A stretch of 64,000 nucleotides of DNA, from the NCBI RefSeq assembly GCF_002838765.1, contig NZ_CP025120.1, forward strand, positions 2,046,001 through 2,110,000, given 5' to 3'. Positions 887 through 17,209 of the stretch are shown here, one piece after another. The notes under the pieces are model-generated. The model ran no database searches. It was not told the origin of the DNA and saw only the letters and a program-made list of their open reading frames with translations. Each line of letters starts with the position of its first letter. Position 1 is the first letter of the stretch. The DNA is from Kangiella profundi. Its GTDB lineage: Bacteria > Pseudomonadota > Gammaproteobacteria > Enterobacterales > Kangiellaceae. The translations under genes were made by a program, and so were the position numbers.

Positions 887-1333
887 TTATGAGACTTCCG
901 CGATTTTAAGCAAGCGGGCCAACTGAGGCTTATATTCCTGCGGTAACATATCGCCCAGTGTGTACTTGTCCAGAGTATTGAGGAAATTTTTCAATGCTTC
1001 TCCAAGCACGGCTTTCAGCCCACAGACGGGCGTGATGACACATTTGTTATCCGGGGAAAAGCATTCCACCAGACTCATATCAGGCTCCATTTCACGAACC
1101 AGTACACCAATTCGGATTTCGTTTGGCTCCATGCGAAGTCGCATACCACCATTTTTACCACGTACAGTTTCGATATAGCCTTTCTTATTTAAAGCGTGGA
1201 CCACTTTCATCAAATGGTTACTGGAGATGTTGTAACTGTCTGAAATTTCCTGAATGGTGCACAATCGGCCCTTTTCCAGCCCCAGAAATATTAGAACGCG
1301 TAATGAGTAGTCGGTATAACGGGTAATATGCAT
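887..1333 (-). CDS. nsrR: Rrf2-family nitric-oxide-sensing repressor NsrR
   Basis: NsrR is a [4Fe-4S] or [2Fe-2S] repressor that releases DNA when NO reacts with its cluster. The 148-residue length is typical. The N-terminal winged helix (about 1-70, including MHITRYTDYSLRVL and the HLMKVVHAL recognition helix) and the three cluster cysteines C91, C98 and C104 are visible, as is Asp8, a cluster ligand in characterised NsrR. The C-terminal LDKYTLGDML matches the family. The start is supported by a GGAG seven bases upstream. The gene lies 33 bases downstream of the DUF454 gene on the same strand, so both are probably co-transcribed from the region carrying NsrR-like operators, giving autoregulation. 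Confidence 0.92.
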   Translation of the reverse strand: MHITRYTDYSLRVLIFLGLEKGRLCTIQEISDSYNISSNHLMKVVHALNKKGYIETVRGKNGGMRLRMEPNEIRIGVLVREMEPDMSLVECFSPDNKCVITPVCGLKAVLGEALKNFLNTLDKYTLGDMLPQEYKPQLARLLKIAEVS

Positions 1334-2033: not shown

Positions 2034-3263
2034 GTGAACAAAGTTAGCGCACAGAATCTTTTCTTTCCCGCGGCCTGCATTCATGCAGCGATAACCGCGG
2101 TTTTAACTGTGCTTGCCTATCAGTTCAGTTCCGAATGGTTAATCGCATTTGTTGGGTTGGGCCATGCTCACGAAATGCTATTTGGCTTTGCTCTGGCGTT
2201 AATCGCAGGCTACACCCTCGGCCAGATTGAAGCACGCTGGTTGTGGATACTATTCGGTTTATGGTTGTTTGCCCGTATCGGTTACTGGGTGGATCCGGCG
2301 GGCGCTATTGGCCAGTGGTCAAGTCCACTATTCGCTTTGGTATTGGCCTGGAAAATCGTACCACGCTTCTTTGCCGCAAAAAAATGGCGCAACCGCATGA
2401 TTAGTCCGTTATTGATGGCAATCTGTAGCGTCCCATTAGCCTGGCTGATTTTGCGTGAGATGGGCTGGCCAGTGGCGCCAGGCCAGTTATCGCAGGCCAT
2501 GATTCTTTTATTGGTCATGTTAATGGCGTTCATCGGAGGGCGGATAATTGCTCCAGCAGTTGCCGGTGAAATGCAAAAACATGGCATTACTCAACAAGCT
2601 CGTGTTCAACCACAGCTTGAAGCTTTAATACTTCTGCTTCTACCTGCGGGCGCCATATCTGCCCTGATCCCAGGTGCCTCGCAGGTAGCAGGAGTATTAT
2701 CAATGATTGTGGCGATCGTCATTGCGATTCGTCTGATTCGTTGGCAAATCTGGCGCTGTGGCGACCGCGCTGACCTGATTGGACTGGGCATAGGTTACGG
2801 CTGGCTGGCAATTGGTACTTTCGCATTGGGCTTTGCTATTTTCTTTGAGATGGCAACCTACGTATTGCTGCACTTTATTACCGTAGGCGCCCTGGGAACA
2901 CTTTCAGCATCGGTTATCCTTAAATCCCGTTTGCATCAGTTCAAACATTTACCACAGCCCAAAATTATGATCATGAATATTCTGGGCCTACTTTTTCTAG
3001 CAACCCTATTTAGAGTTTTGGCCGGAGCCATAGTTGACTCCTCTCCTGGTCTAACAGGACCTAACTTGTTATGGCTCTCGGCCCTTTCCTGGTCAGCGGC
3101 ATATATTGCACTGACTATCTTCATGCTTTCTACACAAACCAACATTTTTACAAAAAAGCCATCACTGAAAAAAGCATCAACAGGTGCAGCTGTGCCTAAC
3201 ATCAAGAATGCGGCTTCAGTGGTTACTCAAAGCAAACGAGGTCAATGCCATGACAGCATTTGA
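2034..3263 (+). CDS. nnrS: NnrS family heme- and copper-containing membrane protein
   Basis: NnrS proteins are polytopic inner-membrane proteins that protect against NO stress. About twelve hydrophobic segments span the protein, and the N-terminal histidine-bearing GLGHAHEMLFGFALALIAGY segment is the family hallmark. The frame is open from an ATG at 1935, but that ATG lies inside an NsrR operator and the first 33 residues are unlike the family. I choose the GTG at 2034, preceded by AGGG at a fair distance and followed by the expected FFPAACIHAAI start. The last 14 bases overlap the next gene. It is first in an operon with the di-iron repair protein and norB, under an FNR/DNR-type promoter and NsrR control. 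Confidence 0.85.
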   Translation: MNKVSAQNLFFPAACIHAAITAVLTVLAYQFSSEWLIAFVGLGHAHEMLFGFALALIAGYTLGQIEARWLWILFGLWLFARIGYWVDPAGAIGQWSSPLFALVLAWKIVPRFFAAKKWRNRMISPLLMAICSVPLAWLILREMGWPVAPGQLSQAMILLLVMLMAFIGGRIIAPAVAGEMQKHGITQQARVQPQLEALILLLLPAGAISALIPGASQVAGVLSMIVAIVIAIRLIRWQIWRCGDRADLIGLGIGYGWLAIGTFALGFAIFFEMATYVLLHFITVGALGTLSASVILKSRLHQFKHLPQPKIMIMNILGLLFLATLFRVLAGAIVDSSPGLTGPNLLWLSALSWSAAYIALTIFMLSTQTNIFTKKPSLKKASTGAAVPNIKNAASVVTQSKRGQCHDSI

Positions 3264-3939
3264 TATTAACCTATTAGACAAGTCGCTCGGTGAGATTGCT
3301 CGTGACCTCCCCGGCGCAAGCAGAGTGTTCTTCAATTACGGAATGAACTTCTGCTGTAAGGGACATCAAGCCCTGGCTACCTGTATCCAGGAGAAAAACC
3401 TTGATGTAGAGAAAATTCTTACTCAATTGAATCAATTGACACCAGCCGAGTCAGCTGATTTTAGTGAAAAATTTGTACCCAACGATGAACTGATTAATCA
3501 CATTCTTGAACGTTACCATGAAGTTCATCGTGAACAATTGCCGGAGTTGATTCGTCTGGCGCAACGCGTTGAGTCGGTACATGGCAACCACCCTGAATGC
3601 CCTACCGGCCTTGCCAGTTTCTTAAGTGAGGTTGAGCAGGAAATGGAAGCGCACATGCAGAAGGAAGAACAGATTCTATTTCCTATGATTCAGCGTGGCA
3701 TGGGTGGTCTGGCGAAAAGTCCTGTCGCAGTTATGCGCATGGAGCATGATGATCATGGGGAATCACTGGCGCGTCTAGAAGAACTTGTAAACCATTTCCA
3801 GTTACCGGCAGAAGCCTGTAATACCTGGCAAGCGCTTTATATCGGCCTTGCCGCCTTCAAGGAAGATCTGATGAACCATATTCACCTCGAAAACAATATT
3901 TTATTTGAACGTATTGATAACTACCTTGGAGGACACTAA
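3250..3939 (+). CDS. ytfE: RIC-type di-iron protein (YtfE/DnrN/ScdA) for iron-sulfur cluster repair
   Basis: RIC proteins restore iron-sulfur centres damaged by NO or oxidants, using a non-heme di-iron site. The N-terminal ScdA domain contains the Cys-Cys motif NYGMNFCCKG. The hemerythrin-like domain carries histidine and glutamate ligands in segments such as RYHEVHREQL, EMEAHMQKEEQ, RMEHDDHGE and MNHIHLENN. I start the gene at the ATG at 3250 because GAGGT lies seven bases upstream and the family begins here; the frame extends 22 residues further upstream inside nnrS. It overlaps nnrS by 14 bases and ends two bases before norB, so the three genes are translationally linked. Confidence 0.92.
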   Translation: MTAFDINLLDKSLGEIARDLPGASRVFFNYGMNFCCKGHQALATCIQEKNLDVEKILTQLNQLTPAESADFSEKFVPNDELINHILERYHEVHREQLPELIRLAQRVESVHGNHPECPTGLASFLSEVEQEMEAHMQKEEQILFPMIQRGMGGLAKSPVAVMRMEHDDHGESLARLEELVNHFQLPAEACNTWQALYIGLAAFKEDLMNHIHLENNILFERIDNYLGGH

Positions 3940-3941
3940 CT

Positions 3942-6221
3942 ATGGGTAAATATCGCAAACTCTGGTTTACCCTGATAGGTATCTTAGCGGTTACCTTCAC
4001 TATCCTTGGCTATTTTGGTCGTGAAGTGTATCGCGAAGCGCCCCCTATCCCAGAGCAATTTGTCACTACTGACGGGCGCGTCTTAATGACTCATGATTCT
4101 ATTCTTGATGGTCAGACTGCCTGGCAATCAATAGGCGGCATGCAATTAGGATCGATATGGGGTCATGGTGCTTACCAAGCTCCTGACTGGACCGCTGACT
4201 GGCTACACCGCGAGTTGGAAGCCTGGTTGGAAATGGCTGCAGTCGAAGATTTCGGTGCGCCATATGCTGAACTTAGTGGTGAACAGCAACAAACGTTGCA
4301 GTATCGCTTAAAGCAGGACTACCGTACTAATACCTACGATAAAGACACTGATACAGTAACTGTTTCAGAACGTCGAGCCAAAGCTATTGCCGAGGTTGGT
4401 GCTTACTATCACAAGTTGTTCAGTGATGCCCCTGAGTACAGAGAACGTCGTAATAACTATGCGATGAAAGAAAATACTTTGCCCAAAGCAGAGCGTCGCG
4501 AAGTCATGAACCAGTTCTTCTTCTGGACCGCATGGGCTGCTGCAACAAATCGTCCTGGTAGTGAAGCAACCTACACTAACAACTGGCCACACGAACCATT
4601 GATTGATAACAAGCCAACTTCTGAAAATATTGTTTGGTCTATCATCAGTGTGATTCTGTTAATTGCCGGCGTTGGTGGTCTGGTTTGGGGTTGGGCATTC
4701 ATGCGTAAACATGATGAAGAAGAACCACCTGCTCCAGCACAGGATCCAATCACTACCTTCAAGTTAACTCCTTCGCAAAAAGCATTAGGTAAATACTTGT
4801 TCGTCGTAGTTGCTTTGTTCACCCTGCAAGTATTTATGGGTGGCCTAACAGCTCACTATACAGTTGAAGGTCAGGGTTTCTATGGTCTGGAAACTTCCAA
4901 GTGGATTCCTTACTCATTGGCTCGTACCTGGCATATTCAGGCAGCAATGTTCTGGATTGCCACTGGCTTCCTGGCTGCAGGTCTATTCCTGGTGCCTATC
5001 ATCAACGGCGGTAAAGATCCAAAATATCAGAAACTCGGTGTCAATGTACTGTTCTGGGCATTGGTAGCTGTGGTGGCTGGTACCTTCATTGGTAACTACC
5101 TTGCAATTGCACAAATCATGCCTGAAAACCTCAACTTCTGGTTAGGACATCAGGGCTATGAGTATGTTGATCTCGGCCGTCTCTGGCAGTGGGGTAAGTT
5201 CATCGGTATCGTCCTCTGGCTGTTCCTGATGTTACGTGGTATTGCTCCAGCATTGAAAAAAGCCGGTGATAAAAACCTGTTAGTTCTACTAACCGCTTCA
5301 GTGGTTGCCATTGGTTTGTTCTACGGTGCAGGCTTCTTCTACGGTGAGAGAACTCACATCTCTGTGATGGAATTCTGGCGCTGGTGGATTGTTCACCTGT
5401 GGGTAGAAGGCTTCTTTGAAGTATTCGCCACAGTATCATTGGCCTTTATCTTCCACAGCATGGGATTGGTGAACCGCTCAACTGCAACAGCAGCCAGCTT
5501 AGCATCAGCTTCATTGTTCTTGCTTGGCGGCGTACCTGGTACTTTCCACCACTTGTACTTCTCAGGCACAACAACTCCTGTGATGGCGGTGGGCGCGACC
5601 TTCTCTGCACTTGAAGTAGTACCTTTGATTGTGCTCGGTTATGAAGCGTGGGAAAACTACCGCCTGAAAAACCGCGCTGCCTGGATGGACAGAATCCGTT
5701 GGCCATTAATGTGCTTCGTCGCTGTTGCCTTCTGGAACATGTTTGGTGCCGGTGTACTTGGTTTCATGATTAACCCACCAGTATCACTATACTATGTGCA
5801 AGGTTTGAACATGACTCCAACTCACGCTCACGCAGCACTGTTCGGTGTCTACGGATTCCTGGCGATAGGGTTTGTCCTCTTGATTCTGCGCTACATCCGT
5901 CCACACATGGTGTTTGATGAGAAGTTGATGAAAACTGGTTTCTGGTGGCTCAACATAGGTCTGGTCATGATGTTATTAACCAGCTTGTTGCCAGTCGGTT
6001 TGATTCAGTTCTACGCAAGTGCCAGCGAAGGCTTCTGGTATGCACGTAGCGAAGCAGTCATGCAGAGCGACATCCTTTACACCTTACGTTGGGTTAGAAC
6101 TATCGGTGACGTGGTCTTCATCGTCGGTGCTCTAGCAGTAACCTGGCAAGTGATTAAAGGGTTGCGTGAACCAGCTGAAGGTACTCAACCAATCGGCGTA
6201 CCTGTTAAAGAAGGTGCTTAA
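3942..6221 (+). CDS. norB: Quinol-dependent nitric oxide reductase (qNOR)
   Basis: This 759-residue single-subunit enzyme reduces NO to N2O in the inner membrane with electrons from quinol. A first membrane helix (about 10-27) is followed by a large periplasmic domain with no CxxCH heme c motif. That marks it as the quinol type rather than the cytochrome-dependent NorBC type. From about residue 220 the 12-helix heme-copper-oxidase core follows, with the histidines in RTWHIQAA, EFWRWWIVHLWVEGFFE, GTFHHLYFSG and PTHAHAALFGVYG. GGAGG lies nine bases before the ATG. It is the last gene of the nnrS operon and is followed by a strong terminator. It may serve denitrification with NirS or NO detoxification. 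Confidence 0.96.
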   Translation: MGKYRKLWFTLIGILAVTFTILGYFGREVYREAPPIPEQFVTTDGRVLMTHDSILDGQTAWQSIGGMQLGSIWGHGAYQAPDWTADWLHRELEAWLEMAAVEDFGAPYAELSGEQQQTLQYRLKQDYRTNTYDKDTDTVTVSERRAKAIAEVGAYYHKLFSDAPEYRERRNNYAMKENTLPKAERREVMNQFFFWTAWAAATNRPGSEATYTNNWPHEPLIDNKPTSENIVWSIISVILLIAGVGGLVWGWAFMRKHDEEEPPAPAQDPITTFKLTPSQKALGKYLFVVVALFTLQVFMGGLTAHYTVEGQGFYGLETSKWIPYSLARTWHIQAAMFWIATGFLAAGLFLVPIINGGKDPKYQKLGVNVLFWALVAVVAGTFIGNYLAIAQIMPENLNFWLGHQGYEYVDLGRLWQWGKFIGIVLWLFLMLRGIAPALKKAGDKNLLVLLTASVVAIGLFYGAGFFYGERTHISVMEFWRWWIVHLWVEGFFEVFATVSLAFIFHSMGLVNRSTATAASLASASLFLLGGVPGTFHHLYFSGTTTPVMAVGATFSALEVVPLIVLGYEAWENYRLKNRAAWMDRIRWPLMCFVAVAFWNMFGAGVLGFMINPPVSLYYVQGLNMTPTHAHAALFGVYGFLAIGFVLLILRYIRPHMVFDEKLMKTGFWWLNIGLVMMLLTSLLPVGLIQFYASASEGFWYARSEAVMQSDILYTLRWVRTIGDVVFIVGALAVTWQVIKGLREPAEGTQPIGVPVKEGA

Positions 6222-6307: not shown

Positions 6308-7144
6308 TTACGATAAATACTCAGCGTGAAACTTTAAGTGCTGCTCAATGAAACTGGCAATAAAGTAATAGCTGTGATCATAGCCATCATGTCTTTCGAT
6401 AGTCACCGGCGCTGACTTTTCGTGAGCAATCGCTTCCAAAGCTTCTGTTTTAAGTTGCTCCACTAAAAACTGATCCGCTTGGCCTTGTGATATCAGCATA
6501 GGAGTTTTTTGTTCGGCTTGCTGCAACAGGTAACAGCTATCGTATTGTTGCCACTCATCTTTGTCATCGCCTAAATAGGCAGTGAAGGCTTTTTGTCCCC
6601 AGGGGCAATTCATGGGATTAACGATAGGGCTAAATGCCGAAGCTGAAACAAACATTTCCGGATTACGCAAAGCAATCATCAGTGCACCATGTCCACCCAT
6701 CGAGTGTCCAGCAATCGCTTTCTTATCGCTCACTGAAAAGTTGCCTTCAATGATCTGTGGTAGTTCACGCGTAACATAATCATACATCTGATAGTGCTTT
6801 GACCACGGCTCCTGAGTGGCGTTGACATAAAAGCCCGCGCCTTTTCCCAGGTCATATCCATCATCATCAGCAACATCATCGCCACGCGGACTGGTATCTG
6901 GCGCAACGATCATCATGCCAAGTTCTGCAGCCATGCGGTGCGCCCCAGCTTTCTGCATAAAGTTTTCATCAGTGCAAGTCAGCCCTGAGAGCCAATATAA
7001 AACTGGGACCTTCTTTCCTTGCTCCATCTGCGGAGGTAAGTACACTGCAAAACGCATCTCACAATTCAATACCGATGAAGAGTGAGTAAATTGTTTATGC
7101 CAACCTTCAAAGCTTTTATTAGCTGAAATTTCATTAATACTCAT
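6308..7144 (-). CDS. fghA: S-formylglutathione hydrolase
   Basis: This cytosolic esterase-D family hydrolase releases formate from S-formylglutathione, the second step of glutathione-dependent formaldehyde oxidation. The length (278 residues) is normal. The alpha/beta-hydrolase triad is visible: Ser148 in GHSMGGHGA, Asp224 in GQADQFL and His257 in GYDHSYYF. The oxyanion-side motif LSGLTCTDENF is also present. It follows the class III alcohol dehydrogenase by ten bases on the same strand, so the two form one operon. The neighbouring NO genes suggest that the pair may also serve S-nitrosoglutathione removal through the dehydrogenase; the hydrolase itself has no known NO role. Confidence 0.95.
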   Translation of the reverse strand: MSINEISANKSFEGWHKQFTHSSSVLNCEMRFAVYLPPQMEQGKKVPVLYWLSGLTCTDENFMQKAGAHRMAAELGMMIVAPDTSPRGDDVADDDGYDLGKGAGFYVNATQEPWSKHYQMYDYVTRELPQIIEGNFSVSDKKAIAGHSMGGHGALMIALRNPEMFVSASAFSPIVNPMNCPWGQKAFTAYLGDDKDEWQQYDSCYLLQQAEQKTPMLISQGQADQFLVEQLKTEALEAIAHEKSAPVTIERHDGYDHSYYFIASFIEQHLKFHAEYLS

Positions 7145-7154
7145 AACTACTCCC

Positions 7155-8297
<1,143 letters not shown>

Positions 8298-8514: not shown

Positions 8515-8970
8515 ATGGAAAAATACGAAGACCTTCTTGTCTCCCTGCGTAAAATCATTCGCTCCAATGATCTCTATTCCAAAGAGCTTGCTAAAAAAGC
8601 AGGTGTTACTGGCCCACAACTTCTGATCCTCAAACAAATCAGTCGCACCAAAGTCATTTCACCAAAAGAGCTGGCAGAAACACTGAACTTAAGCCAAGGC
8701 ACTATCACCAGCATTATTGACCGGATGCAGGACCGCGATCTGGTCACACGGATAAGAAGCCAAACCGACAAGCGTCGTTTTAATTTATCTCTTACGGAAA
8801 AAGGCGAAGTATTATTAGAATCAGCCCCACCACCAATGCAGGATTATTTCATCGAACGATTTAATAGATTGGAAGACTGGGAGCAAACTCAACTATTGGC
8901 CGCCTTTCAACGCGTCGCCAGCATGATGAATGCACAGGAAATTGAGCCACAGACAAATATAGAGCAATAG
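8515..8970 (+). CDS. MarR family transcriptional regulator
   Basis: The 151-residue protein has a MarR winged helix-turn-helix in the middle: GVTGPQLLILKQISR, then the recognition region LAETLNLSQGTITSIIDRMQDRDLVTRIRSQTDKRRFNLSLTEKG, whose D-KRR wing matches the family. Ligand-binding features cannot be assigned. The ATG has only a weak ribosome site, and an unrelated overlapping frame starts further upstream. It is transcribed away from the frmA operon with about 235 bases between them, so it may regulate that operon. No clear palindromic operator was found. Confidence 0.88.
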   Translation: MEKYEDLLVSLRKIIRSNDLYSKELAKKAGVTGPQLLILKQISRTKVISPKELAETLNLSQGTITSIIDRMQDRDLVTRIRSQTDKRRFNLSLTEKGEVLLESAPPPMQDYFIERFNRLEDWEQTQLLAAFQRVASMMNAQEIEPQTNIEQ

Positions 8971-8992: not shown

Positions 8993-9010
8993 TTTACTCT
9001 GACCCCATTA
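8993..9010. repeat. Possible mobile-element end fragment (TTTACTCTGACCCCATTA)
   Basis: I recall sequences of the form TAATGGGGTCAGAGT as often found at the ends of REP-associated tyrosine transposase units and similar elements in gammaproteobacteria. One such stretch lies here, just beyond the marR gene. A degenerate relative, TTATTCTGAACCAACCATT, lies near 9764-9782 on the other side of an AT-rich orphan gene. No transposase is present. The resemblance comes from memory, not a search. Confidence 0.25.
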
Positions 9011-9038
9011 GTTTCCACAATACTTTCCCAAAGAACTT

Positions 9039-9620
9039 TCATCCATCACAGCTTATATATGTCTTTTGTTCAATATAAAGACCATATTCATTTTCCCGAC
9101 CACTTAATCTCAAGCACTTACCAATATCAGAGTCGGAAATCATTCTTTTTGAAAGGAACAATGTATTACCTTTTGAAGTCTCCAGATTTTCAACTCTAAC
9201 TTTCCAAGTTGACCAGTTGAACTTATTATTATCTAGTTTATTAACTCTGACCTCAATGAAAGATTCATTATCAGCAAATAGTCTTAGTTGCCAGTGGTCG
9301 ATAGTCACGCTCATAAATCCAACAGAAAAAAGTATAACTGCAGGGCCAAAAATAATCGCCAAAACTGCTCCAATCTTTGTGTCAGCATGATTGAATATAT
9401 TTCTAAACCCTCTGACTCCATTATTTTGTTTTAAAAAAATATTTAAGTAAAGTAACGTAGCCAATATAAGTACAAGCGATAAACCAAAGTTAGACAAATG
9501 TAATCCTGGTGGCCCAAAACTATATATCGGCCAATTAAGTGTAAGTATAAGTGAAACGCACAAAGGAATGGTGCTACACATTACTACGATAAAAGAGACT
9601 CTTAAAAATTTATTTATCAA
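9039..9620 (-). CDS. Hypothetical membrane protein, AT-rich
   Basis: I do not recognise this 193-residue protein. Three hydrophobic segments are visible near residues 6-28, 44-63 and 83-105. A soluble C-terminal domain of about 85 residues follows and contains two cysteines (LGKCLRL-like and YISCDG segments). The base composition is clearly more AT-rich than the neighbours and the codon use differs, which suggests recent acquisition. It stands alone between marR and asnB. An AGGT-like ribosome site near the start is weak. The function is unknown. Confidence 0.6.
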   Translation of the reverse strand: MINKFLRVSFIVVMCSTIPLCVSLILTLNWPIYSFGPPGLHLSNFGLSLVLILATLLYLNIFLKQNNGVRGFRNIFNHADTKIGAVLAIIFGPAVILFSVGFMSVTIDHWQLRLFADNESFIEVRVNKLDNNKFNWSTWKVRVENLETSKGNTLFLSKRMISDSDIGKCLRLSGRENEYGLYIEQKTYISCDG

Positions 9621-9814
9621 ATCAATACCTCCACGGAGAAATTAGGCTTATTCTTATGACTTCTTGTTCATTTATCTCCCTCTGAATTTGAAAAAAAACA
9701 AGTTTTGGACACCCACTAACTTTTAGCAAAGATTACCAGACAATGGTTATCACCAATAGCTATTTATTCTGAACCAACCATTTCTCCTGTACTTTAATTT
9801 TTACGTTAGAAAAT

Positions 9815-9843
9815 AAAAAAGGCAGCTTAGAAGCTACCTTTTT
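9815..9843 (-). terminator. Intrinsic terminator of asnB (possibly bidirectional)
   Basis: Arms AGGCAGCTT (9820-9828) and AAGCTACCT (9831-9839) pair with one wobble. An A run lies on the left and a T run on the right, so it can work on both strands. It lies 27 bases beyond the asnB stop. Confidence 0.75.
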
Positions 9844-9869
9844 CAAATTTCACCAATTTCTTTTCGCCT

Positions 9870-11882
9870 TTAGGCAACCCAGCCTAACTCATGGGCTTTT
9901 GCAGCGGCCATTTTAGGCACATCATTTTCGATGAAGTGGTGATGCAGAAGTTGCACGCCAAGCACGTGGTTAAGGATGGCATCCATCTGTACTTTATCCT
10001 CTCGTGGTACGCTTGGATCATCATTTTTCCTGATCATATCCTGTAGCGCACCATAATCAATTAGGCCTGCTTCAGCGACTTTTTCTTCGCTGGCGAACTC
10101 TTCCATCAGTTCCATCAGGGCATTCCATTTTTTCTTATCGGTATGCGCTGGTGGTGCCATAAAAGCGAACTTCTGGCGTTTGTATAAAGTTTCTGGTAGT
10201 AGGCCTTTCATGGCTTCTTTTAGGACGTATTTCTCTACCGGGCCTTTGATTCGCATTTGTGGTGGAATATTTACCGCGTATGCCGCCAGATGATGATCAA
10301 GGAATGGTGGACGCGCTTCCATAGAGTTAGCCATATCCACACGGTCCCCGCCCCAGGTCAGAATTTGACCTTCTAACATGGTTTTAATCCAGACATATTG
10401 CGCTTTATCCAGAGGATGACGACCTTCTAACTGAGTTTCATCAAACTGTTCAGCCATCGCTGTGCCCGGATCATAATCACTGATATTGGCCTGATGATCT
10501 TTGCTCATTAATTGACGCGCGAATCCATCACAGCCCATCCAGTTTTGAATACAGGTTGGTGTAAAGCCTACTTTGGCATCAATCGCATCGGAGCGGAATG
10601 CTTCTCTCGGTAACATGGCGCCCTTGAACAGCTTGTTTGATTCGGCCAGAGTTGATTGCATTTCTTTGCGCAGATTTTCTGGCAGGTCATCCAGCCCGTA
10701 CAGGAACATGTCATTACGGAATGCAGGATAGCCAGCAAATAATTCATCACTACCCTCGCCCGTCAATACCACCTTGTAACCCTGCTCACGAACCTTCTGA
10801 CTCATCAATAGTTTTGCGACACCCAGAGTGTTGTAGATGGTTCGTTCTGTGTGCCAAATGGTTCGCTCGAAATGGTCATACAGATGTTCTGCTGAAAGCG
10901 GCAGAATAATTTGCTCTGCGCCCACCATTTCTGCCATTTCGCGGGCAATCGGTGTTTCATCATAATCGGCATCATCAAAGCCAATGGTAAAGGCTTTAAC
11001 TGGATCCTGACGCACTGACGCAGACAAGCCAATAATCGAACATGAATCGATACCGCCTGAAAGATAGGCTCCAACGGGAACGTCAGCATTGAGACGGTGT
11101 TGAACCGCTTCAAGCAAGTTCTCACGCACGCCATCGATGTATTCCTGTTCATCTTTTACATCCAGATGCGCTTCGGCTTGTGGGAAATCAATGTCCCAGT
11201 ATTTATGCTGAGAAATTTCCAGCTTTCCATTGCGACGTTGAATTTTAATCCAATGACCCGGAGGTACCTGATTAACGCCTTTAAACGCCGTTGAACCAGG
11301 AATCATCACCTGAATCAGTTGGTGGTATAGACCCTGCGAGTCAATCTCACGCTTAACTTCAGGATGTGCGAATAGCACCTTTAACTCAGAACCAAACACC
11401 ACGCCATGTTCTGTTTCTGTCCAGTACAAAGGTTTAATACCAAAACGATCACGCACCAGATACATGGTTTCTTCTTCGCGATCATAAATCGAGAAGGCAA
11501 ACTCACCGCGCAAGTTCTCAACGGTTTTTTCGATGCCATAGTGCGGATACATTTGCAGCACAATTTCAGAGTCGCTTTTGGTCTGATAACGTGCGCCCTG
11601 CGCCGTCATATCGGCACGAATACGCTGGAAGTCATAAAACTCACCGTTATGCACCATCATGTAACGCTGGTCATCACTGACAAGAGGCTGTCGCCCGCGT
11701 TCTTCATCCAGATCGATAATGGTCAGCCGCGCATGACTCAGGCCTACACCAACACCTTCTGGATTGTAATAACCGAAGTTATCAGGCCCTCGGTGATATT
11801 GAATGGCCGCCATGTTGACGAGTGTTTGTGCATCAATAGTTCGATCTTTGTCACGATGAATTACACCGGCAATACCGCACAT
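9870..11882 (-). CDS. asnB: Asparagine synthase (glutamine-hydrolysing), long AsnB form
   Basis: The enzyme transfers ammonia from glutamine to an AMP-activated carboxylate, classically aspartate. The N-terminal glutaminase domain begins with the catalytic Cys2 (MCGIAG) and contains RGPDNFG and HNGEFYDF. The synthetase domain has the PP-loop SGGIDS at residues 275-280 and the LTGEGSDELFAGYP motif. At 670 residues it is about 115 longer than E. coli AsnB (554), mostly in the C-terminal domain. AAGGAG precedes the ATG. It is the last gene of the symporter/carbamoyltransferase cluster, separated from the latter by 117 bases with a strong hairpin. In this context the amidated substrate could be something other than aspartate. 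Confidence 0.93.
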   Translation of the reverse strand: MCGIAGVIHRDKDRTIDAQTLVNMAAIQYHRGPDNFGYYNPEGVGVGLSHARLTIIDLDEERGRQPLVSDDQRYMMVHNGEFYDFQRIRADMTAQGARYQTKSDSEIVLQMYPHYGIEKTVENLRGEFAFSIYDREEETMYLVRDRFGIKPLYWTETEHGVVFGSELKVLFAHPEVKREIDSQGLYHQLIQVMIPGSTAFKGVNQVPPGHWIKIQRRNGKLEISQHKYWDIDFPQAEAHLDVKDEQEYIDGVRENLLEAVQHRLNADVPVGAYLSGGIDSCSIIGLSASVRQDPVKAFTIGFDDADYDETPIAREMAEMVGAEQIILPLSAEHLYDHFERTIWHTERTIYNTLGVAKLLMSQKVREQGYKVVLTGEGSDELFAGYPAFRNDMFLYGLDDLPENLRKEMQSTLAESNKLFKGAMLPREAFRSDAIDAKVGFTPTCIQNWMGCDGFARQLMSKDHQANISDYDPGTAMAEQFDETQLEGRHPLDKAQYVWIKTMLEGQILTWGGDRVDMANSMEARPPFLDHHLAAYAVNIPPQMRIKGPVEKYVLKEAMKGLLPETLYKRQKFAFMAPPAHTDKKKWNALMELMEEFASEEKVAEAGLIDYGALQDMIRKNDDPSVPREDKVQMDAILNHVLGVQLLHHHFIENDVPKMAAAKAHELGWVA

Positions 11883-11951
11883 ATAAAAATTCTCCTTGGA
11901 ATCTTATCTAAAAAATTTTTGAAATCAGGTTTAAACGCTTTTTCTAGTGGG

Positions 11952-11981
11952 ACAACCTCATTCTTGAGTCAATGAGGTTGT
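11952..11981. promoter_or_regulatory. Intercistronic hairpin between the carbamoyltransferase-like gene and asnB
   Basis: Perfect 11-base arms ACAACCTCATT and AATGAGGTTGT flank an eight-base loop, with a further CTAG/CTAG pairing outside an internal loop. No T run follows on either strand, so it is not a classical terminator. It may be an mRNA-processing or stabilising hairpin that sets asnB expression apart from the upstream genes. Confidence 0.5.
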
Positions 11982-11999
11982 GGCTAGAGACTATTTAAC

Positions 12000-13070
12000 C
12001 TATATAACATCCATCACCATTTCGGTTCTTTCCACCATGCAGGTTAGCAAGGCCATGCGCAGGAATACCGCACCGCGCGCCTGTGAAAAGTACCAGTTGT
12101 GAGGCGTTTCATCTAAATCAGTTGATAGCTCATCACCTCGCGCCAATGGGTGCAAAATGATGCCATCTTCTTTTAAAGGTGATTGAGCGTTTAATACAAA
12201 CTTATCACCATGCGATTCAAAGTCATCACCGACCCATGCAATCGCGTTAATATAAACCACATCCAGTTCAGGCAATTCCTTGTTTAAACGATTGGTTAAA
12301 CGTAGATTTAAACCTGCTTCTTCAAGCTGTTCTCTTTGTCCTTCTGTGAAAATATCATCATCGGTCTTGTCATGAATAATGACAACTTCTTCAAAGATTT
12401 CAGGGAACAATGAAAAGATTTTTAACAGGCTTCGAACTGTTCTCATGTAATTTGGTAAACCGACAATACCAACACGAATTTTCTGTGGGTTGTCTTTCAA
12501 CAATTCAGGACGCCATTTAAATATAGTATATAGATCCGCCATGGCCTGAGTTGGGTGCTCATCGGTTCCGTTACCGGCATTGATAATCGGAATGCGTAAA
12601 GTCGATGTCATTTCTTTTACCGAGTCTTCATTTGACTCACGTAGCACCACACAGTCGCCATAGTTGTTAAACATCTCACCAATGTCAGCCAGTGATTCGC
12701 CTTTAGCGATACCGGTAGTTGAGCGGTCAGTGATGGACATAATGTCACCACCCAAGCGATGCCAGGCACTTTCAAAAGACAAACGCGTACGCGTACTGGG
12801 CTCATAAAAAGCACTGATTAAAATCTTACCTTTTAATGGCGTATTAAAGCGCTTCGGGTTGCTTTCATATTTACTGGCCAAACGAAACAGTTGCAGAATA
12901 GTTTGGCGATCAAATTGGTCGCAGCTAATGATGTGTTGATTCGCTAACTTAACAAGCGCATCACCATCTTCTTGAATCGTTTTCAATAATGCTTTGGGGT
13001 GTGCATCACCAAAGACATCAGGTTTTGCTCTGGAAAATACCAGATCTTCATCTTTCAATTGGTCTACCAT
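12000..13070 (-). CDS. Aspartate carbamoyltransferase-like enzyme with altered amine-binding site
   Basis: The fold and the carbamoyl-phosphate site are those of PyrB: S92-T93-R94-T95 (YEPSTRTRLSFE), R144 in VVLRES, H172 and Q175 in DEHPTQ, and R210 in MRTVRSL. However, the segment that in E. coli PyrB reads TRVQKER and supplies Arg229 and Gln231 for aspartate binding is here NAIAWVG, putting Ala276 and Ala278 at those positions. HPLPR is HPLAR. It also has about 40 extra N-terminal residues (356 against about 310). The carbamoyl-phosphate chemistry is probably kept while the second substrate differs. Its ATG overlaps the stop codon of the 40-residue membrane protein upstream, so the two are coupled. 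A standard pyrB probably exists elsewhere; I cannot see it. Confidence 0.85.
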   Translation of the reverse strand: MVDQLKDEDLVFSRAKPDVFGDAHPKALLKTIQEDGDALVKLANQHIISCDQFDRQTILQLFRLASKYESNPKRFNTPLKGKILISAFYEPSTRTRLSFESAWHRLGGDIMSITDRSTTGIAKGESLADIGEMFNNYGDCVVLRESNEDSVKEMTSTLRIPIINAGNGTDEHPTQAMADLYTIFKWRPELLKDNPQKIRVGIVGLPNYMRTVRSLLKIFSLFPEIFEEVVIIHDKTDDDIFTEGQREQLEEAGLNLRLTNRLNKELPELDVVYINAIAWVGDDFESHGDKFVLNAQSPLKEDGIILHPLARGDELSTDLDETPHNWYFSQARGAVFLRMALLTCMVERTEMVMDVI

Positions 13071-13186
13071 AATTGGTCCTTTAACCAGTCTCTTACGAGT
13101 AACACTATGAGGATGATTGGCGACAGACAGGTCACTGCCATCGCCGCGAGAATTAAAAATTGGAGCGCATCAAAAGACATTAGCAT
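13064..13186 (-). CDS. 40-residue single-helix membrane protein, probable symporter accessory subunit
   Basis: This frame encodes 40 residues starting MLMSFDALQF, with one hydrophobic helix (about 9-31) followed by a charged tail RDWLKDQLW. It begins one base after the symporter's TAA, with GGAG at the end of that gene as its ribosome site. Its TAG lies inside the start of the carbamoyltransferase-like gene (ATGGTAG). Such tight coupling on both sides argues strongly that it is translated. Several sodium/solute symporters have tiny partner proteins, so an accessory subunit is the likeliest role. I do not recognise the exact family. Confidence 0.72.
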   Translation of the reverse strand: MLMSFDALQFLILAAMAVTCLSPIILIVLLVRDWLKDQLW

Positions 13187-13187
13187 G

Positions 13188-14609
13188 TTACTTCTCCATA
13201 TTTGCTAAACGGTTCCAGTCAAACTGATCGTCTTTGAGCATCAGTCCCAGCATACAAACAATAAATGACACACAGCAACTGATTAATGCACCGACGTAAA
13301 AGCCAATGCTGAAATAGCCAATCAGTCCACAAGTTGTGCCTAATGCCATGGCTGCTCCGGCAAATTTACCAGACAGTCTTTGCTGATAAAGTCCTAACAC
13401 AATCGGCCAGATAGCACTTGCCACAAATGCACCTGCCAGATTCAGAACTTCACCTAAAGTCCCTGCTCTTGGCAAACAGATGAGCCATGTTGCAAAACCC
13501 AGCATCAAAATTACGTGACGACCGACTTTTTCCAGTTTTTTATTATCGGCCTGCTTGTTGATAAATCCTTTGTAGATATCTTTGGTGATCAAGTCGCTGG
13601 TTGCAGCCAATAAAGAATCAAGGCTCGAAGCTAGCGCAGAAAAGACCACAATGAACACGAAAATTGCACCGACTGAACCTAGTAGTTTCGCTGCCACCAT
13701 TGGCCCAACCATATCCGCTTCTGCTGGATAAATGCCTAGCGCAGGAGCTGCCAAAGCAATGAAGCCTGTGACAATCGGAATAGGCAACCATAATAAACCG
13801 GCCAACAGATAAGCGCGTTTACCGATTCCTTGACGGAAAGCCAAGGCTCGAGACCACCAGACATTTGAATGGAAAATCTCACCAATACCAAAGAAGATAT
13901 TGTTAAACAAAAACATGATGGCCGCAGGGAATAATAAGTTCAGCAGTTGCGGATGTTCCTCTTTCGCTGACTCATAAACAGTATCCAGGCCAACCGTTTG
14001 GTAGCAGACATAACCAATGATCAATACACCAAATAGGATGATCAGAGTTTGCACATAGTCAGTGGCAATAACCGCTCTGAGTCCACCCAGCAAGGTGTAT
14101 CCGACACAGATGATTAATATCGCTGTCATACCGAGGTGATAGCTAAGACCACTCAAGGTGGATAGCAAAACACCACCGGCCATGCCAAGACTGACCAGCC
14201 AGCCAAGGGCATAACAAAAGGATACGATGAGAAAGATGATCCAGGCGACTTTACCGTAACGCACCCGAATGAAGTCACCACAGGTGTAGCCCTGCGGCAT
14301 CAGCTCTTTAATACGTTTCGCCATCGGCGCGAATAGGATCAAGCCCAGAGCAGCCATTGAATAACCGACCATGCCCCAGATACCAAACTGATAGGTCAAC
14401 TGTGGTGCTACTAAAGTCGTATTACTGGTGATCCAGGTGGCCATTGCCGTTGCCGAAGCAAAAGCGAAACCCACATTACGTCCGGCCAGCATGAAGTCAT
14501 CCAGGTCTTTATTTTTTCGGCCTAACCACCAACCGAAAAAGATCCAGATCACACCAAAAGCCACCAACAGGCTTGCTGCCATCGTTATTGAAATAGGATT
14601 AAAGTCCAT
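13188..14609 (-). CDS. Sodium/solute symporter family (SSS) protein, Dur3-like
   Basis: The 473-residue inner-membrane protein has about 13 hydrophobic segments and the SSS signature region. The N-terminal third, with TWITSNTTLVAPQLTYQFG, then PMAKRIKELMPQGYTCGDFIRVRYGKVAW read in two parts, resembles Dur3-type urea and ureide transporters, including the RYG motif and the sodium-site ALASSLDSLLAATSDL segment. The substrate is not proved. The gene starts three bases after the stop of the upstream 178-frame membrane protein and ends one base before the 40-residue protein, so it sits in the middle of a tightly packed operon. With a carbamoyltransferase and AsnB downstream, a nitrogen-rich substrate such as a ureido compound is plausible. 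Confidence 0.88.
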   Translation of the reverse strand: MDFNPISITMAASLLVAFGVIWIFFGWWLGRKNKDLDDFMLAGRNVGFAFASATAMATWITSNTTLVAPQLTYQFGIWGMVGYSMAALGLILFAPMAKRIKELMPQGYTCGDFIRVRYGKVAWIIFLIVSFCYALGWLVSLGMAGGVLLSTLSGLSYHLGMTAILIICVGYTLLGGLRAVIATDYVQTLIILFGVLIIGYVCYQTVGLDTVYESAKEEHPQLLNLLFPAAIMFLFNNIFFGIGEIFHSNVWWSRALAFRQGIGKRAYLLAGLLWLPIPIVTGFIALAAPALGIYPAEADMVGPMVAAKLLGSVGAIFVFIVVFSALASSLDSLLAATSDLITKDIYKGFINKQADNKKLEKVGRHVILMLGFATWLICLPRAGTLGEVLNLAGAFVASAIWPIVLGLYQQRLSGKFAGAAMALGTTCGLIGYFSIGFYVGALISCCVSFIVCMLGLMLKDDQFDWNRLANMEK

Positions 14610-14612
14610 GAG

Positions 14613-15116
14613 TTAGTCTTCTGTTGAAGTTTCTTTTGTGCGAAAGGCTCTAGAAATCATGTAACCAATGAGAATGGCGAACATCACCGCGCCAATACCA
14701 AAAACCAACCATACGCGCTCAAGGGGATGGTGCTCTACGGTAACTGTGGCTACATTACTTAAGACGTTCTGCTGTTCATCCAGCAGACGAAGGAAGTAGG
14801 TTCCATCATCGTACCCCGTCAGATGAATCTTGTTCTGATAGGTAATATCCAGACGTTGCAACTCAGGCGAAAAGCCTTCGTTGGTTGCCAATTGAAGATA
14901 TTTGGGAGCTTGGTAAGCAGAGTCAGTCAAGACTTGCTCGTCTTCACTTTGATTTGTAGTCAAACTATTCCATTCAACACTAAAGTAACCGGCGTTAGAA
15001 CTTTGCTCTTGTGGCATCAGCTCAAACTCGCAAGCACTTCCTTCGCAACCCGAAGAAATTGCTGCGCTACTGAATGTAACAATGGAAAAAATGACCGCAA
15101 TCAGGTGTAAGGCCAT
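14613..15116 (-). CDS. Secreted-domain membrane protein of the symporter operon (unknown function)
   Basis: I chose the ATG at 15116, giving 167 residues, because it begins a clean signal peptide (MALHLIAVIFSIVTFSSAA); a GTG 33 bases further upstream is also open. A periplasmic domain of about 100 residues follows, with a CEGSACEF cysteine pair near its start and a beta-rich pattern resembling a fibronectin type III or Ig-like fold (VEWNSL, YQNKIHLTGYDDGTYFLRLLD). A single transmembrane helix lies near the end, with a short cytosolic tail. It is the first gene of the operon and ends three bases before the symporter start. I do not recognise its family; it could be a substrate-recognition partner of the symporter. 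Confidence 0.68.
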   Translation of the reverse strand: MALHLIAVIFSIVTFSSAAISSGCEGSACEFELMPQEQSSNAGYFSVEWNSLTTNQSEDEQVLTDSAYQAPKYLQLATNEGFSPELQRLDITYQNKIHLTGYDDGTYFLRLLDEQQNVLSNVATVTVEHHPLERVWLVFGIGAVMFAILIGYMISRAFRTKETSTED

Positions 15117-15260
15117 AAAAGTTATGCTGTCTTTGCAAAGACAAGCCACTTTAGCAAAGCTTTGTATTCAAATCAAATTGGCTGACTAAAGATTAATCAC
15201 TTACAATAACCTACAGTAATTTGCTAGGGTATAAGCAATAATTCAAAAGGAGGATGGCTT

Positions 15261-16520
15261 ATCTATTCCGTAAATATTGAACGAATTGAAAAAGACTTAT
15301 ATGAGCTAGCCAACTTTGGTTTTAATCCAAAAGATAAAGGCATCTACCGCCAAGGTCTTACCGAGGTGGACATGCAGGCTCGTCGCTGGGTCATGCAACA
15401 GTTCGAGGCTAACGGCCTGACAACTCATATGGATGGTGTCGGCAATGTTTGTGGCCGATTAGGTGACCCCGACAAACCCGCCATTATCATTGCCTCGCAC
15501 CTCGACTCAGTACCAGCAGGTGGTATGTTTGATGGTACTCTGGGCGTTATGGCAGGCTTGGAGTGCATTCGCGTACTTAGGGAAAATAATATCGAACCCA
15601 AGCATCCCATCGAAATCATAGGCACCAGTGAAGAAGAAGGTCGCTTTGGCGGCATGCTGGGTGCCCAGGCCTTAAGTGGTAATCTCAATTTTCAATGGCT
15701 GGAGTCTGCTCGCGATCCCAAAGGTGAGTTTCTAAAAGATGCGATGCAACAGTGTGGACTGGATATTCATGATGCGCTGCATTGTCGACGCGACCCCGGC
15801 AGTATCAAGGCCTTTCTCGAGTTGCATATCGAGCAGGGACCCGTGCTCGAAAAACAACAGAAAACCATAGGCGTTGTTGACGGCATATCCGGCGTATTTA
15901 AATGGCTGGTCAAACTTAAAGGTAAAGCCGACCATGCCGGTACTGCACCGATGGATATGCGCAGTGATGCCTTTATGGGTGTCGCCGATTTTGCCCATGA
16001 GATCAGCCGCATCATTGATGAGGAAGGCACCGATAAAACCCGCCTGACCATTGGCCGTGTAGATTTAAAGCCCGGTTATGCACACACCATTCCCGGTGAA
16101 GCGCACTTTACATTGGTCGGTCGTGACATGAGTGAAGAAGTCATGCAGCAAGTTGCTAACAGCTGTGGCAAGGTGCTCTCCTCTATCGCCCGCAAGCATA
16201 AGTTACGCTTTGAGTACGAGCAGATGAGCTGGCTGGAACCAAAATATTTCAGTCCCAAACTGGTGAATTTGATAGAGGAAAAGGCAAAAGAGTTGGGCTA
16301 TAGCCATTTACGAATGCCCAGTGGCGCCGGTCATGATATCCAGTTCTTTACTGACATTACTCCAACTGGACTTATTTTTATTCCCAGCGTTGGCGGCGTC
16401 AGTCACGCACCGGATGAATGGTCGCATTGGCAGGATGTCGAGCAAGGCTCTAACTTATTGTTAGCAACTTTATTGGAGTTATGCCAGGAAACCGATGACG
16501 GAAAACTGGCACTCAGCTAA
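15261..16520 (+). CDS. M20-family Zn-dependent carbamoyl-amidohydrolase (allantoate amidohydrolase / N-carbamoyl-amino-acid hydrolase type)
   Basis: The metal-site motifs are those of AllC/HyuC enzymes: SHLDSVPAGGMFDGTLG, GTSEEEGRFGG, LELHIEQGPVLE, HAGTAPMDMR, SGAGHD and GVSHAPDEW. These enzymes split ureido groups to ammonia, CO2 and an amine. The first standard start codon in frame is the GTG at 15366, but the 35 codons before it (15261 on) encode SVNIERIEKDLYELANFGFN, as expected at the N-terminus of the family, and give the usual total of about 419 residues. A strong AAGGAGG at 15247-15253 sits seven bases before ATC at 15261. The only ATG (15254) is out of frame and ends after eight codons. 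Either a non-standard start or a one-base frameshift is needed. Confidence 0.85.
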   Translation: MYSVNIERIEKDLYELANFGFNPKDKGIYRQGLTEVDMQARRWVMQQFEANGLTTHMDGVGNVCGRLGDPDKPAIIIASHLDSVPAGGMFDGTLGVMAGLECIRVLRENNIEPKHPIEIIGTSEEEGRFGGMLGAQALSGNLNFQWLESARDPKGEFLKDAMQQCGLDIHDALHCRRDPGSIKAFLELHIEQGPVLEKQQKTIGVVDGISGVFKWLVKLKGKADHAGTAPMDMRSDAFMGVADFAHEISRIIDEEGTDKTRLTIGRVDLKPGYAHTIPGEAHFTLVGRDMSEEVMQQVANSCGKVLSSIARKHKLRFEYEQMSWLEPKYFSPKLVNLIEEKAKELGYSHLRMPSGAGHDIQFFTDITPTGLIFIPSVGGVSHAPDEWSHWQDVEQGSNLLLATLLELCQETDDGKLALS

Positions 16521-16542
16521 ACTTCTTTTGCTAACAGCCAAT

Positions 16543-16576
16543 AAAAAAGCAGTAGCCAACGACTACTGCTTTTTTT
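16543..16576. terminator. Bidirectional intrinsic terminator between the M20 gene and ibpA
   Basis: The stem pairs AGCAGTAG with CTACTGCT around CCAACGA, flanked by A6 on the left and T7 on the right. It serves the plus-strand M20 gene and can also stop ibpA transcripts from the other side. Confidence 0.88.
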
Positions 16577-16637
16577 ATGACTAACGGTTTATTGATTCTG
16601 TTTGCTGCTTACCAATACAGCAAGCGAACTGTTTTGA

Positions 16638-17129
16638 TTACGCTGCCTGTTCAGACTCCTTTTTATGCTCAAGGACTCTGTCCGACTTTTTGTCTGAACT
16701 GGCTTCTGAAGTACCAATCTCGATGGTACGAGGTTTCATGGCTTCAGGGATTTCCTGCTTCAGGTTAATGGTTAATAAACCGTTGTTCAGATCAGCTGAT
16801 ACGACTTCTACGTGATCAGCTAAATTAAATTTACGTTCAAAGGCACGATAAGCTATGCCTTGATGCAAGAACTTGCGTTCTTCTTCGGTTTTTTCTTTAC
16901 GTCCACGAACTGTTAGAACACCTTTCTCAACCTGGATGTCCAGTTCATGGCGACCGAAACCAGCAACAGCTATGGTTACGGCGTATTTATTTTCATCAAG
17001 AACTTCGATGTCATAGGGTGGGTAACCGTTAGAAGATTGTTCGCCTCGCAATGTGCTATCCAGTAAAGATGCCATACGATCGAAGCCAACACTACTACGG
17101 TACAATGGACTTAAGTCAATTCTATTCAT
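16638..17129 (-). CDS. ibpA: Small heat-shock protein IbpA/Hsp20
   Basis: IbpA-type holdases bind unfolded proteins in the cytosol during heat stress. The N-terminal MNRIDLSPLYRSSVGFDRM is nearly that of E. coli IbpA. The alpha-crystallin domain spans about 38-125, with AGFGRHELDIQVEKGVLTV and the conserved GLLTINL, and a C-terminal IEI-type motif follows. A lysine/glutamate-rich tail of about 25 residues is longer than in E. coli. I start at 17129 because GGAGG lies eight bases upstream; the frame extends eight codons further. A sigma-32 promoter and a ROSE-like thermometer lie upstream. Confidence 0.95.
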   Translation of the reverse strand: MNRIDLSPLYRSSVGFDRMASLLDSTLRGEQSSNGYPPYDIEVLDENKYAVTIAVAGFGRHELDIQVEKGVLTVRGRKEKTEEERKFLHQGIAYRAFERKFNLADHVEVVSADLNNGLLTINLKQEIPEAMKPRTIEIGTSEASSDKKSDRVLEHKKESEQAA

Positions 17130-17132
17130 AAT

Positions 17133-17157
17133 CATATCCTCCAATAGAAGCAATATA
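17133..17157 (-). promoter_or_regulatory. ROSE-like RNA thermometer hairpin covering the ibpA ribosome site
   Basis: In the minus-strand leader, TATATTGCTTC pairs with GGAGGATATG around the loop UAUU. The ROSE hallmark UUGCU is present, with its G (17151) bulged. The pairs are C17150-G17139, U17149-A17140, U17148-G17141 and C17147-G17142 above the bulge and six A-U or G-U pairs below. The whole GGAGG is sequestered. A second leader hairpin lies upstream, with CTAA/TTAG outside TCTC/GAGA and a bulged G. These features match ROSE elements of other ibpA genes. Confidence 0.8.
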
Positions 17158-17209
17158 TTGTTAATGTTTATGAGCCCTAATCTCTCAGAGACTTAGCGCT
17201 CACGATCCT

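Follow-up and report, generated by a model that had tools for sequence, protein, structure and literature searches.

Carbamoylglutamine amide (CGA) was described in 1991 (cited in PMC1224877) and reported from Ectothiorhodospira marismortui, also known as E. mobilis; in 2013 it was still called a solute of one organism only (PMC3857566), and a survey from 2020, on the osmoadaptation genes of phototrophs, counts it among the possible solutes of purple sulfur bacteria and, in the passages covered, names no genes for it (PMC7824335). A literature search, with subscription papers mostly outside its reach, found no genes assigned to CGA and nothing on the compound in the accessible portions of PMC5818414 and PMC5231179; it likewise gave no relevant paper tying aspartate carbamoyltransferase and asparagine synthase to compatible solutes and salinity, and none on Idiomarina compatible solutes, ectoine and amino acid catabolism. 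The locus considered here occupies 9870-16520 of a 64,000-nucleotide stretch of Kangiella profundi (NZ_CP025120.1, positions 2,046,001 to 2,110,000), referred to as the window, in a genome of one contig of 2.65 Mb. It joins a carbamoyltransferase (CTase) to an AsnB-like amidotransferase, and a compatible-solute operon making CGA is the leading, and to our minds a probable, candidate for what these genes encode.

Five of the genes lie on the minus strand and are, in transcription order, a periplasm-facing membrane protein (14613-15149), a symporter (13188-14609; Pfam SSF), a hydrophobic membrane protein of 40 residues (13064-13186), the CTase (12000-13070; Pfam OTCace_N/OTCace) and the AsnB-like enzyme (9870-11882; Pfam Asn_synthase and GATase). 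Their spacing is 3, 1 and -7 bp, the 40-residue open reading frame (ORF) overlapping the CTase start by 7 bp, with 117 bp from CTase to AsnB. An M20 hydrolase (15261-16520, plus strand; Pfam Peptidase_M20) is divergent from the operon. All six ORFs are where the initial annotation had put them, and its reading of a carbamoyl-compound pathway with a maker, a breaker and a transporter withstood the two conditions named to refute it, as the CTase is not the PyrB of the genome and the gene order is conserved. The purpose which it ascribed to the pathway, uptake and turnover of an environmental ureide, is not supported by the comparisons below.

The case begins with the active site of the CTase, whose nearest named relatives are from Kangiella (98% in K. 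aquimarina). In aspartate transcarbamylase (ATCase), for which residue roles were taken from PMC4581275 and PMC7878868, the RxQxER motif (R229 and Q231) anchors the beta-carboxyl of aspartate (PMC4581275). In 108 CTases, comprising that of the window and those of all 107 loci used, the carbamoyl-phosphate ligands S52, T53, R54, T55, R105, H134 and Q137 are kept without exception (108/108), as are R167 and K84, which anchor the alpha-carboxyl; R229 and Q231 are lost in 108/108, with A/S/T at the first and A/S/V/T at the second. The PyrB rows used for comparison number 16, namely that of the same genome and the 15 best matches from other genomes, all named PyrB in this analysis; 2-3 of the 16 have gaps at the examined sites and one has C at K84, and rows with letters read R at R229 in 14/14 and Q at Q231 in 13/13. 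Because the carbamoyl-phosphate site and R167/K84 are kept and R229/Q231 are lost, the CTase should take a free alpha-amino acid other than aspartate. Moreover, the HxLP motif, which with its cis Leu-Pro marks all known transcarbamylases, some variations allowed (PMC4581275), is missing from the CTase clade: Ala occupies the P268 site in 108/108, L267-P268-R269 is L-A-R, and the window reads HPLAR. The initial annotation would have been undercut had this enzyme been the only PyrB; in fact, the genome has two OTCace_N genes, and the other, at 354 kb, has TRIQEER and HPLPR and reads as the true PyrB. In the tree of CTase and PyrB sequences (65 of 124 given in, 62 of 65 rows used, the three left out being PyrB), the CTase belongs to a clade distinct from PyrB.

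Named transcarbamylase families fit poorly. The CTase scores 199.1 bits against NCBIfam TIGR00670 (ATCase), below the curated cut-off of 236.95, 105 bits against TIGR00658 (ornithine transcarbamylase, OTCase; cut-off 281) and 77.7 bits against TIGR04384 (putrescine transcarbamylase; cut-off 500). OTCase identity is ruled out by the second of these scores together with the 240s loop, where the consensus of 40 CTase sequences is YINAIAWVGDxFE and DxxxSMG is absent; putrescine transcarbamylase is ruled out by the third. Ureidoglycine transcarbamylase (UGTCase) is ruled out since its H(T/S)LP is missing, and the diaminopropionate type since its motif is HDLP and the window has HPLAR. ATCases and OTCases were the only families among the 50 matches listed by VIA-align, which leaves room for families outside that listing.

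The AsnB-like enzyme keeps the Cys2 glutaminase nucleophile and the SGG(I/V)DS loop in 104/104 relatives. It scores 444 bits against TIGR01536 (asparagine synthase), above the cut-off of 267, and 323 bits against TIGR03104 (the amidotransferase of N-acetylglutaminylglutamine amide, NAGGN), below the cut-off of 570.1; its best solved relative is a hydroxyamidotransferase. In NAGGN, the carboxyl is closed by an amidotransferase of the AsnB type, and the enzyme of this locus is likewise proposed to amidate a carboxylate, the 1-carboxylate of an N-carbamoyl amino acid. With a carbamoyltransferase acting on the alpha-amino group and an AsnB-type amidotransferase on the carboxylate, the product would be an N-carbamoyl amino-acid amide. 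A more mundane explanation is that chance has made neighbors of two housekeeping paralogues, one being a second aspartate carbamoyltransferase and the other the cell's asparagine synthetase. The TIGR01536 score and the fact that this is the only full AsnB-type protein of the genome are what that explanation would predict; K. sediminilitoris lacks AsnA, with an asparagine synthase suggested as the substitute (PMC6000758), and G010, a genome from that genus, carries the operon but gave no match to AsnA. Yet the window's genome encodes AsnA, which makes action of AsnB on aspartate unnecessary, as well as the true PyrB; the aspartate motif is lost throughout the CTases, and the two genes are linked in 80/80 loci across phyla. 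The PyrB/AsnB housekeeping pair was rejected on the separate PyrB, the AsnA and the motif loss, and we consider it very improbable.

That linkage comes from a CTase scan of named genomes which gave 228 loci; the "named loci" are the best 80 of the 228 and are thus biased toward close relatives. A gene order not conserved in relatives would likewise have undercut the initial annotation, and AsnB adjoins CTase in all 80. By tblastn, the SSF gene is found in 79/80 of the named loci, the membrane protein in 63/80, the 40-residue protein in 42/80 and the M20 gene, at an identity threshold of 40%, in 38/80; none of 9 fetched loci from the genus Ectothiorhodospira holds SSF. In high-GC loci, antisense ORF artefacts disturbed the ORF-based layouts, and gene order there was therefore re-read by tblastn. 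A class sample of 369 gammaproteobacterial genomes has the CTase clade (E<=1e-80) in 23, the window's own included; the AsnB clade (at least 59% identity) is present in the same 23, and the next AsnB match beyond the clade is only 38% identical. Carriers include Kangiella, Aliikangiella, Pleionea, Idiomarinaceae, Alteromonas, Pseudoalteromonas, one Shewanella, Nitrosomonas halophila, Kordiimonas and a Cyanobium, and we take most of the named carriers to belong to marine or halophilic genera. What stays invariant is the synthetic pair, CTase and AsnB; the hydrolase and the transporter are less constant.

These proportions bear directly on a catabolic alternative close to the purpose first proposed, in which DUR3-like uptake of urea, allantoate or N-carbamoyl compounds would feed turnover by M20 with the CTase running in reverse, as in UGTCase. 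The symporter is kin to DUR3, the M20 enzyme is in the allantoate amidohydrolase/carbamoylase family, and UGTCase is itself an enzyme of the ATCase branch annotated as a pseudo-ATCase (PMC4581275). However, the H(T/S)LP of UGTCase is replaced by L-A-R in 108/108, the invariant AsnB would spend ATP and glutamine in a pathway whose hydrolase is optional, and no allantoinase or carbamate kinase was noticed in the ORF translations of the window, where no family search was aimed at them. With a synthetic core, a less constant hydrolase and transporter, and an EctR/CosR-type regulator in several lineages, solute synthesis with import and recycling fits better than ureide use, and we regard the catabolic alternative as improbable.

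What connects the pair to CGA in particular is the purple bacteria. Photosynthetic reaction-centre genes occur in 2 of the 22 other class-sample carriers, G146 and G360. The G360 CTase shares 96% identity with that of an Ectothiorhodospira sp. metagenome-assembled genome (MAG), 83% with that of E. lacustris, 82% with that of E. magna and 76% with that of Thiorhodospira sibirica. In the Ectothiorhodospira family, CTase is found in 41/47 genomes, and in 38/38 of good quality; AsnB is found likewise in 41/47 and 38/38, the two sets of 41 differing by one genome each way, both incomplete. All 10 examined genomes of the purple genus match CTase and AsnB. At the level of species rather than of the CGA source strain, the reported producer of CGA holds both genes in G411, a genome identified as E. 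mobilis; its cluster runs MarR, M20, isochorismatase-type hydrolase, CTase and AsnB, with no SSF, and the last four are found together in 9/9 fetched loci of the Ectothiorhodospira genus. T. sibirica, for which no annotated osmotic stress genes are reported, and E. magna, reported to be without biosynthetic capabilities for betaine and ectoine (PMC7824335), both carry CTase.

The same logic could nonetheless serve another product, such as an N-carbamoyl amide of asparagine, glutamate or alanine, possibly an undescribed solute. The sequence fixes two modifications and excludes the aspartate-binding motif, and leaves the side chain free; moreover, the pair is far wider (1452 CTase relatives at E<=1e-90 among 8000 scored candidates) than one reported CGA producer. 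On the other hand, no such solute other than CGA turned up in the literature passages covered, and the genome identified as the producer species has the genes, so that a different amide seems to us unlikely, though worth keeping in mind.

The M20 protein scores 497 bits against NCBIfam NF006771 (cut-off 399), has the ErtE model (N-carbamyl-L-glutamate amidohydrolase) as its second NCBIfam match, below that model's cut-off, and has N-carbamoyl-L-amino acid hydrolase 3n5f as its nearest solved structure. The motifs SHxD, DGxLG, EEG, HxEQG, SGAxHD and SHxxxE are all present, with the key H, D and E invariant in 63/63, and an N-carbamoyl-amino-acid amidohydrolase for recycling is the function we propose. 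An isochorismatase-family enzyme (at least 50% identity) is found in 27/107 loci, including L221, L139, L140 and L075, with Asp, Lys and Cys kept in 27/27; it lies within the gene set in 26 of the 27 by tblastn re-reading and, in L075, by ORF layout, and among its relatives of solved structure are N-carbamoylsarcosine amidohydrolase, biuret hydrolase and RutB. With an M20 carbamoylase and an isochorismatase-family enzyme in carrier loci, the two synthetic modifications are mirrored by two hydrolases. The M20 gene has a further peculiarity. The first listed start is GTG at 15366, and the apparent start is 35 codons earlier, an AUC at 15261, standing 6-8 nt past a Shine-Dalgarno-like sequence, with the start region spanning 15247-15263 (plus strand). 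An apparent non-AUG start of this kind recurs in L003, L004, L007, L008, L011, L017, L018 and L022, as AUU in L004 and L018; in these loci, no ATG, GTG or TTG occurs from a close in-frame upstream stop to codon +32, and yet conservation extends over the N-terminal residues. An ATG stands near this position in many other loci. The conserved non-AUG start could provide translational damping of the breakdown enzyme.

The symporter was described as Dur3-like at the outset, and this holds, the urea symporter DUR3 (9j7c) being its nearest solved relative (E 6.5e-33). Solute uptake or re-uptake is the role proposed for it, and a ureido-type cargo is plausible. The 40-residue protein is real: a direct ORF scan gives a hydrophobic ORF of like size in like position in 78/94 loci with adjacent SSF and in 1/13 without, so that it goes with the transporter, and we propose it as a small symporter partner. 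The membrane protein at 14613-15149, which had no Pfam family at 1e-3, reads as a signal-like N-terminus, a periplasmic domain and a C-terminal transmembrane helix; the ORF family is present in 81/98 loci, and an alignment of 22 members has a conserved G and the motifs SGxxDGxYYxR and VxVxH. It is proposed as an accessory or sensor part of the transporter. The symporter thus seemingly has two conserved small membrane partners, the second of them facing the periplasm and single-pass, which we consider unusual for an SSF transporter.

Put together, the favored scheme is as follows. The CTase would move the carbamoyl group from carbamoyl phosphate onto an amino acid, at its alpha-amino group; L-glutamine is the most likely acceptor. 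The AsnB-like enzyme would then amidate the 1-carboxylate, drawing the nitrogen from glutamine. Uptake or recapture of the solute would fall to the SSF symporter and its 40-residue and periplasmic partners, and the M20 carbamoylase, in many other bacteria with the isochorismatase-type amidase, would dismantle the solute as salinity drops. Repression of the operon at low salt may be the task of an EctR/CosR-type MarR. A scheme with the same enzymes could instead belong to a specialised metabolite, a ureido natural product, rather than to a bulk solute. Diaminopropionate transcarbamylases do serve antibiotics (PMC4581275), and the best solved relative of the AsnB is, as noted, a hydroxyamidotransferase. 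But a carbamoylase and an importer adjoin the makers, EctR-type regulators recur in several lineages, carriers are presumably mostly of salt habitats, and no nonribosomal peptide synthetase or polyketide synthase was noticed in the ORF translations of the window, where no family search was made; we give this possibility the least credence of those considered.

The regulator, a MarR-family gene at 8515-8970 (plus strand), lies outside the range covered by the initial annotation. At low salinity, ectABC is repressed by EctR1 and by CosR, which share 51% identity; betaine genes, too, are under the control of CosR (PMC7876524). The window MarR is 36-48% identical over 140-144 residues to the 11 MarRs that 20 ectC stretches, each about 8 kb long, were found to hold, which places it among the kin of EctR/CosR; the genome's second clear MarR does not exceed 33% (70 residues), or 32% over 104 residues. 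In several lineages, a regulator of the ectoine type lies near the operon. A MarR of either type is found in 41/107 operon loci, 28 like that of the window and 13 of a second type. The genome itself has no ectC, and Kangiella strains are reported to be without the ectoine operon (PMC6000758). Divergent from the MarR, at 6308-8294 (minus strand), are genes for an S-formylglutathione hydrolase and a class III alcohol dehydrogenase. The MarR at 8515-8970 probably matters; its tie to the operon holds up well when lineages are compared, but in the window itself it is weak.

Several results weigh against a CGA operon under such a regulator, and they should be set out together. The window MarR converges on the operon and diverges from the formaldehyde dehydrogenase gene, and it was not found in the loci fetched from four other Kangiella (L006, L007, L008 and L011), so that the link is uncertain in the window; given the divergent genes, the MarR may control formaldehyde detoxification instead or as well in Kangiella. 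A MarR is less than 1 kb from the operon in only 21/107 loci, and identity between the Ectothiorhodospira-type MarRs and that of the window is only about 25-33%. Taken together, the carriers show no clear shortage of ectoine genes: ectC occurs in 2/23 of them (G167 and G375) against 52/369 over the cut-off in all, where about 3 are expected, which is no significant lack. Distribution is patchy in the window's genus, with CTase in 12/20 genomes, its own included, and the window's genome gave no match to the isochorismatase-type hydrolase at 1e-15. In the purple bacteria, the CTase match of G414 covers residues 104-354 only, and a genome identified as T. sibirica has CTase and AsnB about 706 kb apart on one contig; CGA itself is called a minor solute of E. 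marismortui. Finally, glutamine would be one choice among side chains that the sequence does not fix.

An imperfect palindrome, TTTGANTACAAA, lies just upstream of the operon (15161-15172, minus strand) and is a candidate promoter or operator element. It has 14 copies in 2.0 Mb of fetched DNA, of which 7 are just upstream of the operon (the window, L003, L004, L010, L011, L012 and L014, from Kangiella, Aliikangiella, Pleionea and a MAG), 3 are inside the membrane-protein gene and 4 are inside MarR genes of Idiomarinaceae. It was found in 0/20 ectoine loci and, hence, does not tie the operon to EctR. The best perfect dyad upstream of 76 operons, CAAAG-CTTTG, occurs in 7/76 against at most 2 in 10 shuffles, and its carriers are probably close relatives. 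Promoter-like sites numbered 10 against 11.4 in shuffles, and no promoter is claimed for that reason. A terminator-like hairpin with a 14-pair stem follows AsnB (9845-9814, minus strand) and is treated as a mere pattern match, since the region has 10 such hairpins against 7.1 in shuffles. An Rfam search of 9000-17200 gave nothing up to E 0.1. Farther off, a NorB-type nitric oxide reductase, a RIC/YtfE-like protein and an Rrf2/NsrR-like regulator were read by eye from translations at 3184-6221 (plus strand) and 887-1333 (minus strand), and would be a nitric-oxide response set.

Taken as a whole, the results incline us, somewhat past an even chance, to a larger proposal: that marine and halophilic bacteria share a widespread, previously unrecognised nitrogen-rich osmolyte system, in which a new transcarbamylase subfamily (without RxQ, and with HPLA rather than HxLP) and a dedicated AsnB-type enzyme produce CGA, or something closely related to it, as a compatible solute. 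The system would bring along a salvage transporter and a carbamoylase, joined in several lineages by a regulator of the EctR type, and its product may be the main solute where ectoine genes are missing, as in Kangiella. The locus supplies candidate genes for CGA, and the question is reducible to two proteins. If the proposal is true, CGA-type solutes would be common in marine gammaproteobacteria, a nitrogen-rich compound would be added to the marine dissolved organic nitrogen pool, and many "aspartate carbamoyltransferase" names would need correcting. A transcarbamylase that does without the HxLP proline and accepts glutamine-like amino acids would, in addition, be relevant to the enzyme wanted for making N-carbamylglutamate, a drug (PMC4581275).

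Several described systems come close. In the case of CGA, CTase and AsnB would supply exactly its two modifications of glutamine, and the genome identified as E. mobilis has both; CGA, however, has been described as a compound, and its literature, in the parts covered, assigns no genes to it. NAGGN synthesis also yields a neutral glutamine-based osmolyte whose carboxyl is closed by an AsnB-type amidotransferase, but the amino end is acetyl in NAGGN and would be carbamoyl here, and no dipeptide synthetase was noticed beside the locus. Ectoine operons with EctR/CosR share the MarR type (36-48% identity) and a compatible-solute logic with this locus, and differ in solute and enzymes, the window's genome being without ectC. 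DUR3, the nearest solved relative of the symporter, has 704-773 residues against 473, and two small membrane partners are found at this locus. UGTCase and the CTase are both on the ATCase branch and both mis-annotated as ATCase, whereas the CTase is without H(T/S)LP and has partner genes that look biosynthetic. PyrB differs from the CTase in having RxQxER and HPLP, where the CTase has HPLA, about 40 extra N-terminal residues and a separate clade.

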